This document shows positions 24,901 through 39,900 of a DNA stretch of 64,000 nt, one piece after another. The stretch is from contig CACVBU010000156.1 in assembly GCA_902728285.1 (NCBI GenBank), positions 372,001-436,000 on the forward strand, read 5' to 3'. Each line of letters begins with the position of its first letter. Position 1 is the first letter of the stretch. The notes below the pieces were generated by a model, which was not told the DNA's origin, searched no databases, and saw nothing but the letters and a program-made list of their open reading frames with translations. The DNA is from Clytia hemisphaerica (taxonomy: Eukaryota; Cnidaria; Hydrozoa; Leptothecata; Clytiidae). The position numbers were made by a program, and so were the translations under genes.

Positions 24901-27900
24901 TTTGAGGACGTTATTTTTTTGAAATATTATAGCGATAGATTTTACTTTCAATCCGGCTTTTGTGTAAAAACCACGCGCGGGCGTTCTGGATGGGAATAAT
25001 AAATAAGTGGTTTCATTTCCCATCCTGGAGTCTTGAGTCTAGCTTCGGGCTCGGAAGTCAATGGTACTAGTATAATCAAAGATCTGTCCAAATGCAACAA
25101 ATTAGAAAAGATTCTTCAAATTGGCAGAATTTTGTATTTTTTGTACCTCGCCGAGACGGGAAATCCATCTGAAACGGAAGAACTTTTTACACTGATTTAC
25201 TTCAAGATATGCACCTCCACAACGACTTCAGGAAACTATGTAACTTTTATGGGGTATTCTACCATATGCACCACTTGCAGTATCTATCAGTTGTATTAAA
25301 GTGACGTAACGTCCATATTGCAGAGGATCATATCTTGAACAGTGATAAGAAGTAAAAGGGACTGAGTACTAACTTGTCTTCCATGAACATGAAAAGAGAA
25401 TCCATGACGTCACTAGCCTCTTTTTCCATCTGCTGTCGTTCTTGCATAGACACTGCGTTGGCTCCTTTCACTCTGAGGAAGAGGAAAAAACTCCATAATG
25501 AGAGAAGGTACTGTGCAACTTTGAAAGCAAGGAAAACACGAAAAAAAATCATAGTAGAATTGATTATTGTCTGATTTGTTTTTGTTTTGATGGTACAGTT
25601 TGAGTCTTTATAATTGGAATCTTCACAGGGAACACAAATTTGTTCAGGAAATTTGAGAGTTATGGAGAGTAAGGCTTTATAAGGCATTGTTACCTGAAGG
25701 GATGAGAAAATTTGATCGAGTTAAGGGGACATTCGAGTTTTAGAGGTTCGAGTTAAAGAGACTTTAATGTAGCATCAAATAGGTTAAGAGGCGAGATCAA
25801 TGGATTAACATTTTTTAAAACCACCACGAGTTTTTTTTGGTAATTTATCCTCGAATGTGCTGAAGCAAAAAAACTTATATGAACAGAGGAGGGGTGAATG
25901 GGCTATTCCATTGTTATCTCCATACAGAGGGGTGAGCGAACATTTCAAGGGGGGGGGGTAATCCGAGAAGTATTTCCAGGGGGTCTAATTTTTACAGGGG
26001 GTTAAAAGTTATTCTAAATTCTTAATTCGTCCACCCTAACTTTAATAACCCCCCCTATTTTCCAGGGGGGGGGGGGTTATTTACACATTTCTAAGAATCT
26101 TTTCTTGACTTGAAAAGGTTCGTCCGTCCCTTGTATGGAAATTCAATGGAACATCCCAACAACTTACTTGTACAGTTGAACGTTCAAAAGCTTACAACAT
26201 TCTTTGATCTTGTCAGATACGCTATAAAGAAAGAAAAGAAGTGAATTTTTTAACAAATTGCAAACACAGACACTTCGAAAACGACCTTTTCCACTAAATG
26301 AAAATCTCTCTCGATTGTGGTATACAGCAATTACGGCAAAAAATACTACCACCATTGTAGACTGGAGTCGTTTATAATGCGTGTAATACTAATATACCAA
26401 TACTAATAATAATAATACGGGATTTAGTTTGTATAAACGACTGGAAGAATCCGGTGTTCCAGCCTTATAGATACAGGGGCTAGCTACGCAGAAACTTGCG
26501 TAGCGAGAAAACAATTTATCAAGCAACAACAAACTCTCAAAACGAAATCAACTCAAATGAAAAACTTTCAATACACAAATCCACACACATGTTTTTCTCA
26601 AGAATTATTTTGAGCGGGAAAAAAATTATATTTGCAAATATAGACACTTTTCTTTTGTTTGGAGTTAGTGCACAAAGGTTTCTAGACGACTAAAATTGTT
26701 CTCTTTATTACTTTTTGCTTTATTTCTACTATGTATGAATTAGTCGTCTAGCTTGCTAGACTACCACAATTGAGGGAATTCCTTGGCCGTAATGGAAATG
26801 GCAATAGCGAGTTTATGTATTCGAGATAAATCGAGGGGGACGGTATAAAGCAAAGTTGACATGTCTCCAAAATCACAGTCCACTTTGCTCGAAGACGGTA
26901 AAAACATCAAAATACCGTCGTCTGTAGGTGAGCAAAGGCGATATAGAGCCGTACATCAACTATCGACTTTGTTTTTGTATCATTTCACTTACCGTCGCCC
27001 TCGATATCCTCCGATACATAAACTCGGTATTCTTATACAAACCGACAGTAACGTGGGAATGGAAGAAAGTTTTTTTTTGTTTGTTTAAAAAATGCTGTGT
27101 AAGCAAATGGCTAATGGTTTACTTTCCTTAACTAGCCATAATACAGTCAGTGAAATCCCTCAATTGCGGTATAAAATTACTACATCATTTGAGGGAATTC
27201 CTTGACTTTAATAGTTTGATTATTAGGAATAAACTCACCTTGTGGCGTGGAAGACACTCAAATCATCCAAGCATTGTGATAAATTCTGTTGAAGGTTTTT
27301 AAACGTCTCCAATGTACTTTCATCCATCTGAAAAAAATAGACATAGTAAAAAAATAAACATAAAACACTATGTACCATTATTCAAGATAGAACGCATCGA
27401 AAACTCTTTTTTTATTTAAGAACAATCTTATAAGATAAAAAAGCCAGAAAATAATTAAAGAACAACCCTCAGCCTGGAATGACTGTATTTTCGGCAAATT
27501 AAAGGTCAATATGGTAAAATAGGGTATCAAGTCAGAAATAACCCAAATTTCCCCTGTAAAGATTAAAGTCTGCGAAAAAGGAGCGCAGTAATTTACTTTT
27601 GGCCATAACTTTCCAACCAGCTGTCGTATGATAAAAAGTTTGATATCGTTGGAAAGATATTTAAATGCGCCTATATTTTTCAATAATCTTTTTCTTCAAA
27701 GTTCTCACAGGAAAGGCTCGAGTCTTTTTGGCGATCTCGCCTTCCTGAAGAAAAGCCGAATCTTTCTCAATACAGTATAAGGTAGAACACAAAATATTCG
27801 AGACAAAAAACAAGCCATAATGAATGATTCAATAAAATTTCTTTCTTTTGGAAAAATTTTCAATACTGTACTTAAATCTAAAGATACTAAAATTTTCGTA

Positions 27901-36900: not shown

Positions 36901-39900
36901 ACTTCTTTATTCCCCATCATCGCGGAAATCACTTTGTACCAGTCACCATAAGAAGGGTACAAAAGTGAAGATTTATTTCCTTCGTGAAAATATTCTGCTC
37001 CCCAAACCAAACGTTCGATCGTCGTCATATTTTCCTCAACTTTATCCGCAGCTTGGTTTTGCTTTTGAATGACCCTTTTCAAATTTTCAATTTCTCTGTT
37101 TAAATGTTGGACAGTTGCTTCTTTCTCTATCCTTTCTTTCTCCATCTCGCTCAATTTTGTCTCCGTTTGTAACATTTTGATTTTGTGTTCATTTTCCAAA
37201 TCTTTCATTTTCATTTTCCATTCATTTTTCAAATCTTTCATTTTCATTTTCCATTCATTTTCTTTTGCATCAGTTTCCTTTTCTTGTTCTTTCTTGTACA
37301 GAACCATTTCGTGCTCTTTGGCTAGTAATTGTTTCTCCTTTTCAACTAACTCATTTTGGAGTTGTTGATCGGCTTGAACTTGACTTGATTGAGATTCACG
37401 AGAATTCTTTAATTTGAACATCTCAAATTGATGAGATAAAGTTTGATTTTCTTTTTCTAGCTGCATGATTTTCAACGTTTTCTCATTTTCAGATTCCAGT
37501 TGTTGAATCTTAAATTCCATTTTGAGTTTCTCAATCTCTTTTTGATGTTCTTTTTTCAGTTTCACAATCTCTCCACTATCCATTTCCACCCTTGGGTTTC
37601 TACCGACAGCACTGTGTGAAATTTCTTTTATCTTCAGGATTCATTTTCTCTTAAACAGCATCAACAAACATACAGAGACTCAGACATAAACAAGGACGAA
37701 TAAAAACTCAATGCTTCAAAAACGCAAGTAGTTGAGTTTATTTAAATCATCTCATATCGCCCGAACTGTTTTTAAATAACATCAAATTATCCTCCCCTCT
37801 CTGTCTTTCTATTGATTTAGTTTCATATGACATTCTTGCTCAAACAAAAAAAATTTTAGATGCCATGGCAACTTCAGTTGGATATAAAAACTTGCGGCTC
37901 ATATTTCTTAATCTCGAAGATTAATTACAATCGATCATTCATTCTTTGCATACCACGCTCTGGCGAATAAGCTCATTTATATTCATCCCAAATCTGGATG
38001 AAAAAGATCTAAGCGGTGCCTGGGCAGATTTTCTTACGGAGCCATGTCCTTAAGAGTGAATACGTTCCATGAGTGGAGTTATAAGAATCTGCTCGGAGAA
38101 TGAGATTATATTGTTATAATACACGCTTTTTTTATAAGAATATACATGATTACGTCACGTTCCCAATCACGCGCCATGTGAATTTTTCCAAGAAATTCTA
38201 CTTTTTATATATGAATCAATTGATTGAAAACGGTCAAACATTGAGCCAGATATCAACATTTTTTAGTAAAATCCCCAAAAGAGGCAGTGCGTACATCGAT
38301 CAAAAACATGGAACCCAATTACACGTTTTTTTATAAGAATATCTATAATTTTTTTGAAACCTTTGGATGTTCTTAATTTTTTTAGGTTTAAAGCCTTAAA
38401 AAAATTCTTAACACGTTCTTATTTTCACCATTTTGTGAGTATTCTTATCCATATTTTCTTAGAAATCGGGTGTTTTAAAGTCTGCAAAGCTTTAAAACGT
38501 TCTTAACTACTTTTTCTTAATATTTTGGCCATGTTCTTATAAAAAACATGTGTCTCAGAGACTTTCAAAAATACTTTTTCCTGTTAATTCAGGGCTAAAG
38601 GCGTACATTTTTTGCATTTTCGCAATCATTTTTCTCAATCTCGGCCAAGCTAAATCTTTAATCGGAGTTTTTTGAAAAGTGGTACCCTAATGGCGGCACT
38701 ACTCAATAGCGGTGTAAATGCATCGAGAGCGCTAGGTCCACTTTTCCTAGAATACTTTTGATGATGCAGCGCCGTTTAGACGTTAATTTTTAACACTGCA
38801 ATGGCTTCTCTGTGGGTACCAATTCGAAAAAAAATGTCGATCAAAGATGGCGGATATAGCTTTGTCCAGGGATATATAAAGGTCAGTGCTTATCATGAAT
38901 CCTCCGATTTTGACGCTGATCTTGAATAAGTTGAATGAACATAAAACCTTACCTTCTCAGGCCCGATATTTTCGTAAATCTTTTGCAGTTGAACTCGAAC
39001 TTGTTGAATATTGTTCATCAGAATACAAGCCTGAAAAAAAGATGAAAAAATTCAACAAACCTTAATATTGAAATAATATTTCAGGCTTTTACCCTATAGC
39101 CATTTACGTACACGTTTTTTACGTGAACATCTAAAATGTGTTAAGCCTTCGGATGTTCTCGAGTCATAACTTTTGGATCTTTAGGCCTAAAAATGTTCTT
39201 AAAATGCTCTCATTCTCACCATTTGGTGAGTATTTTTGTGCGATTTCCAAAGAAATTGGGTGTTTTAGAGTCCGCGAAGCCTTAAAATGTTCTTAACTTG
39301 TTCTTAATATTTTGGCCATCGAAGCCTTATTATGTTATATCTTATTATCTTATTTGTTCTTATAAAAAACGTGTATTACACGAGACAAGAGCAAGTGAAG
39401 AATCGACAAGTAAAGGTGAAAATAAAACAACCTTAGCGATGTTGTTATTAGCAGTAAGATTCGTAAGAAAGAAAGTTACGAGTGGTCAAAAACTCATGAC
39501 TCGCGCAACTTTATAAATATTCAAGTTTCGTAAATTATTCTTTAATGAAAAAATTCAAGGTGAAAGAAACTAAATTTATAAAAAACAAGTTAAAAAAAGA
39601 ACAAATAGTCTATGGCAAATAAGAAATTCTCGTGAATCTTTTGTTTACTACATTACTTTAGCAGAGCCTTACCTGAAACTGCGAAAGTTTGTTCCAGTGA
39701 TAAACTCTGCTTTTAAAGTAGAAGATTTTTGACCTTCCACATAAGTCAAGCCCCTGACGTAAGTAAATCTTTCATTAGGGCATCCATTTAACAGTCGCAA
39801 AGCGTAATGGGTAATCAGGACCACTGCGCGCTAATGTGACGACTTACTTACTATTGGTCCAAAGTTTTGAAAAATTTTGAAGATTTTTGCGTCTAGTCAT

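Follow-up and report, generated by a model that had tools for sequence, protein, structure and literature searches.

Genes nested in a UNC13 intron of Clytia hemisphaerica belong to a large family with positive selection in the C-terminal domain

Fibrinogen-related and C1q-domain proteins of invertebrates form expanded families that carry a C-terminal globular domain. In TRIM5alpha and the finTRIM proteins, a coiled coil is followed by a C-terminal domain whose positively selected variable regions lie at congruent places, accompanied by a large lineage-specific expansion. A comparable arrangement, with a long charged helix in the place of the coiled coil, is found in a gene family of the hydrozoan Clytia hemisphaerica, three members of which (A, B, and C) lie within an intron of UNC13, on the minus strand like the host gene, in the window analyzed here (the whole stretch of 64,000 bases; contig C112, 372001-436000; genome of 417 Mb in 951 contigs). 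The array represents only a few members of a genome-wide family of more than 100 gene copies, whose proteins end in a C-terminal domain (CTD) of approximately 145 residues. A, B, and C are probably members of a lineage-specific germline repertoire of recognition proteins, with the specificity of the CTD residing in three patches.

The likeness to finTRIM is one of behavior and not of membership, since the defining domains were not found: RING and B-box gave no Pfam match in the window copies and 13 further family open reading frames (ORFs), and B30.2 (SPRY) gave none among 48 CTDs and their consensus. Compared with the TRIM and finTRIM proteins, the family utilizes a short N-terminal tag and an unassigned CTD, both in one open frame. 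Similarly, neither Fibrinogen_C nor C1q was matched by Pfam in the family members scanned, and unlike the fibrinogen-related and C1q proteins, members that carry the tag have no signal peptide at their start.

The three genes and their parts are situated as follows.
29160..30085, minus strand: copy A, a pseudogene in which indels break the helix part
31240..32286, minus strand: copy B, a complete single-frame gene with N-terminal tag, helix, and CTD; 348 residues plus stop
32230..32286, minus strand: N-terminal tag of B
31246..31674, minus strand: CTD of copy B, from the family profile
36588..37583, minus strand: copy C, an open frame from an internal ATG at 37583
36591..37022, minus strand: CTD of copy C

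The frame of B is open from the conserved start. In C, a different frame upstream holds the start codon shared by its relatives along with the beginning of the N-terminal tag, and in A the CTD frame (29160-29591) is still open. An earlier sequence-only reading of the window had described a tandem array inside a UNC13 intron with two open copies and one broken by indels; both points are borne out, with MUN-domain matches flanking the array on the host strand. The repeat similarity in the array is far above chance expectation. A and B are direct repeats with a spacing of approximately 2.2 kb and a common 5' flank, and C has its gene and 3' flank in common with them, while its 5' flank is its own and is also present on contigs C265, C816, and C285. 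Three direct units had been proposed; the A/B repeat stands, but the three units are unequal. Between A and C, the 3' flanks (28636-28935 and 35791-36090) are 99% identical over 300 bases, much more similar than the genes are, which points to recent duplication or conversion. By eye, a TATATAAATA-like motif is seen at 32404-32413 (B) and 30211-30220 (A), approximately 120-130 bases 5' of the ATG. Immediately preceding the ATG of B and A, a T-rich run with AG at its end could be a cis- or trans-splice acceptor.

A consensus CTD query recovered 140 matches in the genome at E ≤ 1e-3, 132 of them without an internal stop; as 150 of 172 candidates were scored, 140 is a lower bound for matches, among which are haplotig duplicates, fragments, and genes hit as two separate pieces. 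The CTD of C, used as a protein query, recovered 121 matches at E ≤ 10, 113 without an internal stop. From 100 loci, 97 distinct frames with a CTD match were obtained (masked domains having been removed earlier), and after the removal of six under 110 residues, 91 were kept; pseudogene A is among them, as are two haplotig pairs with both of their members. In the usual build, one open frame leads from a short N-terminal tag (..DERNLAHSA.GRN) through a long charged helix to the CTD. Methionine, tag, at least 100 residues, and CTD stand in one frame in 51/91, and the single-frame genes that the earlier reading described for the array are borne out. The tag is present in 53 of the 91 frames, in a longer form (31, RN-L/M-AHSA type) or a short form (22, MDxAHC/S type), and the remaining 38 either are truncated, break off at the border of the locus, or differ. 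The CTDs of other clades mostly share 25-42% identity with that of C, with the tag nonetheless found at this frequency. The middle part is rich in K, E, and Q, with a fraction of 0.41-0.45 in the window clade. None of the titles and abstract openings listed in topic searches of the literature describes this family, a kind of search that would miss one known only as 'uncharacterized protein'.

Judged by its sequence, the CTD is an undescribed domain, absent from every library searched, in agreement with the earlier statement that it could be assigned to no family. No convincing match was obtained in Pfam with 48 members, the consensus, and full-length members including the window copies and the 13 family ORFs, nor in NCBIfam or PHROGs; in PDB, a single sequence gave nothing convincing and the profile gave no hit at E ≤ 10. 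Scattered weak library matches involved one member each, none at the curated cut-off where one was shown. The lowest E values came from an aldehyde reductase model (E 0.00056) and Pih1_fungal_CS (E 0.0051), each matched by only 1 of the 48 members, and, with the consensus, from a bromodomain (E 0.029); all of the weak matches were taken as chance. Among viral and prokaryote contigs no relative was confirmed, with search patterns derived from the window copies only, which would miss distant relatives.

Selection acts differently along the protein. By the Nei-Gojobori method, the helix parts of B and C differ by a nonsynonymous divergence (dN) of 0.100 and a synonymous divergence (dS) of 0.322, a ratio of 0.31, whereas the CTDs differ by a dN of 0.098 and a dS of 0.072, a ratio of 1.36. 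Codon models were applied to 40 of the 91 frames in six clades (8, 10, 6, 5, 4, and 7 members), without A, second haplotig copies, truncated copies, and singletons, and columns present in fewer than 80% of members were dropped. Twice the log-likelihood gain of M2a over M1a for the CTD and the upstream part, respectively, amounts to 61.9 and 2.9 in the window clade, 55.8 and 18.0 in C308, 100.0 and 0.0 in C604, 28.2 and 6.6 in C273, 23.8 and 0.0 in C38, and 11.2 and 3.9 in C394, the weakest of the six. The positive class comprises 6.5-22.7% of CTD sites with an omega of 4.55-10.48, compared with 15.6% of sites that have omega >1 under M2a in the finTRIM B30.2 domains of fish, where the selected regions are congruent with those of TRIM5alpha (PMC2657112). 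The upstream part has a dN/dS of 0.23-0.65 in the six clades; the helix is for the most part conserved, C308 being the one clear departure. Thus, the CTD substitutions are not mild, in contrast to what the sequence-only reading had judged. The average dN/dS of the CTD is indeed near 1, a value which that reading would have held against itself, but it reflects a mixture of sites, some conserved and others positively selected, and not neutrality.

The signal was further examined by null simulations in two of the six clades and by star and segment trees in three. Plain null simulations reached at most 3.4 in the window clade (24/24) and 0.7 in C604 (6/6); with trees scrambled every 20 codons, all 14 stayed at or below 7.3 in the window clade and all six at or below 2.7 in C604. 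Star trees preserve the signal, with 81.7, 104.0, and 107.7 in the window clade, C308, and C604, respectively. With separate segment trees in the same order of clades, the middle segment yields 34.8, 28.6, and 61.1 and the last segment 12.1, 9.8, and 24.8. Meanwhile, the first 52 codons on their own tree carry no signal in the window clade (0.5) and C604 (0.4) and a weak one in C308 (7.3).

The selected sites coincide between clades. On 142 common columns, 10 columns are hit in at least three of the six clades, compared with 2.0 expected, and none of 5000 random shifts reached as high a coincidence. Three hypervariable patches (columns 55-66, 67-82, and 109-126), whose borders were set after the site map was seen, occupy 46 of the 142 columns and hold all 10 shared columns and 63 of the 85 selected sites. 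In copy B they correspond to the following positions.
31471..31506, minus strand: hypervariable patch 1 of the CTD, clade columns 55-66
31423..31470, minus strand: hypervariable patch 2 of the CTD, clade columns 67-82
31291..31344, minus strand: hypervariable patch 3 of the CTD, clade columns 109-126

In the patches dN is raised and dS mostly is not, for example in patch 3 of the window clade (dN 0.28, dS 0.07) and patch 1 of C308 (dN 0.20, dS 0.04), which favors protein-level selection over local hypermutation.

The copies have spread by DNA duplication. The neighborhood of the array, including UNC13 intron and exon sequence, recurs beside other members at 79-93% identity, on both sides in C285 and on the downstream side in C234, and the UNC13 exon peptides in those duplicates are 92-100% identical to those of the window. 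On C265 and C816, a C-type gene is adjoined by a piece of the upstream flank of B together with a B-like helix fragment of 165-168 bases, which indicates that tandem pairs were copied as blocks. At loci L002, L004, and L008, the sequence ending at approximately window position 33402 is joined directly to that starting at approximately 35791; hence, the intervening 2.4 kb or so (33404-35790) is a later insertion in the window. A foldback element lies in this inserted sequence at 34545-35758, with arms of 258 bases that are 95% complementary and internal repeats approximately 51 bases apart. The founder itself had been suggested to be a retrogene or element-borne, followed by duplication. The duplication, within the UNC13 intron, is confirmed. 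An element-borne founder, although still conceivable, is not supported, and neither is a retrogene founder, because the blocks that were duplicated bring along their flanks and exons of UNC13, unlike a retrocopy. Homology between copies reaches the flanks and the UNC13 exons, beyond the transcript; this bears on the later copies and not on the founder. No hallmark of a retrogene was noticed, in an analysis that did not look for poly-A tails or target-site duplications. The search for an intron-containing parent, which had been recommended, recognized none among the 121 and 140 matches of the two six-frame whole-genome protein searches, a method that can miss a distant or finely split parent.

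The host gene is recognized by MUN-domain matches of UNC13 on the strand of the array and on both sides of it (window positions 46295, 44816, 42438, and 22357; E 9.1e-8 to 4e-4). In addition, the peptides of 21.8-27.3 kb, when joined together, match unc-13 homolog A (PDB 7t7c) with an E of 3.1e-25, mainly through the two most downstream peptides. Three host exons are listed.
42438..42542, minus strand: UNC13 exon on the upstream side of the array; MUN positions 146-182, E 4e-4
27244..27327, minus strand: host exon directly downstream of the array, attributed to UNC13 from its position, strand, and occurrence in the partial duplicates of that gene; taken alone, it matches unc-13 weakly
22357..22482, minus strand: UNC13 exon; MUN positions 432-473

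The embedded copies share the strand and locus of UNC13, and pieces of it were duplicated together with them, but they possess their own starts and stops. No UNC13 domain was matched by Pfam in the embedded copies, which were not compared directly with UNC13 itself. Partial copies of the 3' half of UNC13 are present at L060 (C234:746500-754100), L059, and L003 (C285), where the surrounding DNA has diverged to approximately 72-90% and the exon peptides remain 92-100% identical; selection may maintain these copies, or they may still be expressed. In the UNC13 region, an interspersed repeat of approximately 407 bases at 26357-26764, 95-98% identical at more than 30 places among the matches listed, is probably an element with recent activity. 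Another of approximately 260 bases at 38631-38892 is approximately 90% identical at more than 30 places among the matches listed, the whole query that covers it giving 13,737 first-look candidates. A long poly-G/poly-C tract at approximately 40.7-40.8 kb is visible as glycine and proline runs. Elsewhere in the window, the only Fibrinogen_C match belongs to a separate, open single-frame gene at 13747-14685 (Pfam E 1.8e-54), with a hydrophobic start that resembles a signal peptide by eye. On a 14,551-base contig of the genome, a COX1 gene situated at the contig end reads with TGA=W and AGA=R at conserved sites; together with the linear single-chromosome mitochondrial DNA described for hydrozoans (PMC11067881, PMC13119343), this points to a medusozoan and makes a hydrozoan likely. 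GFP, as a marker of an anthozoan, was not detected, in a search whose controls gave no match either.

A constrained tag and helix, combined with a CTD that changes at the same patches across clades, is the expected signature of a contested binding surface. In such a protein, the N-terminal tag would probably act as a docking or signaling handle and the long charged helix would probably self-associate into oligomers, while the CTD would carry the specificity, with its three hypervariable patches binding changing ligands. The driving force would be an evolutionary contest with pathogens or mobile elements, or one of self/non-self or gamete recognition; cytosolic innate immunity is the likeliest setting, as no signal peptide is present at the start of the tagged members. 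More tentatively, and with somewhat less than even confidence, the family could constitute a new hydrozoan germline recognition system of more than 100 mostly cytosolic proteins, displaying three specificity patches on a self-associating helix, with the tag nucleating a common response. The three putative specificity patches would be comparable in this respect to the variable loops of TRIM5alpha or the complementarity-determining regions (CDRs) of antibodies.

Several observations weigh against a recognition repertoire. Outside the patches lie 22 of the 85 selected sites, several of them in the first segment of C308 (7.3 alone), and segment 83-108, also outside, exceeds 1 in C604 (3.1, dS 0.02) and C38 (1.4). 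The patches of C394 have a dN/dS of 0.46-0.72, and patch 1 of C38 combines a high dS (0.40) with a dN/dS of 0.41. The upstream part is also selected in C308 (18.0) and weakly in C273 (6.6). Heptad periodicity is significant in three of five members tested, with p 0.13 for C and, globally, p 0.58 for B. The profile search and structure prediction once proposed for the CTD led to no known family and, with AlphaFold2 on three window copies, to a predicted local distance difference test score (pLDDT) of 44.5 with no usable CTD fold. M0, M1a, and M2a were run in our own implementation, not in PAML. Furthermore, three haplotig pairs are 99.3-99.97% identical, with no sign there of extreme allelic variation, and all tests concern paralogs of one genome, whose specialization once they were duplicated may have produced the signal.

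Such specialization without a contest is the main rival, since only paralogs of one genome could be compared, and we consider it unlikely. The proteins would be adaptor or cytoskeletal paralogs whose CTDs bind different fixed cellular partners after a burst of divergence following duplication, as would suit the near identity of the haplotig pairs and the mostly purifying selection on the helix part; however, separately expanded clades show selection at the same columns, and dN in the patches is already raised between close copies (CTD dS ~0.1). A repertoire for gamete or self/non-self recognition, instead of anti-pathogen sensing, would be expected to leave the same signature. By hydropathy only, L041 has a signal-peptide-like start, and L086 and L099 contain an internal hydrophobic segment that resembles those of type II membrane proteins, which would suit such a role; the 53 of 91 frames that start with the tag, not with a signal peptide, speak against it, and we regard it as distinctly improbable.

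The many copies, the location of the array among repeats, and the flanks common to the copies would also fit the protein of a mobile element, amplified with its element and now decaying. This is very improbable, as 132 of the 140 matches have no stops, the similarity between copies, compared by the extent of flank homology, breaks off at varying points and takes in UNC13 exons, no transposase, integrase, or polymerase domain was found among the family proteins scanned, and the upstream part has the dN/dS of 0.23-0.65 given above. Least probable of all, and scarcely credible, is an origin of the high CTD dN/dS in relaxed constraint and gene conversion: conversion fits the low CTD dS relative to the helix dS in the window clade, but relaxation alone cannot exceed 1, far below the omega of the positive class, and the nulls with scrambled trees remain at most at 7.3.

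If the interpretation as a recognition repertoire is right, a likely role would be given to a very large orphan gene family, and its unassigned domain would join the short list of domains that are used as variable recognition surfaces. Such a surface would belong to an animal lineage without vertebrate-type adaptive immunity, and the residues to test in it are named by the three patches.

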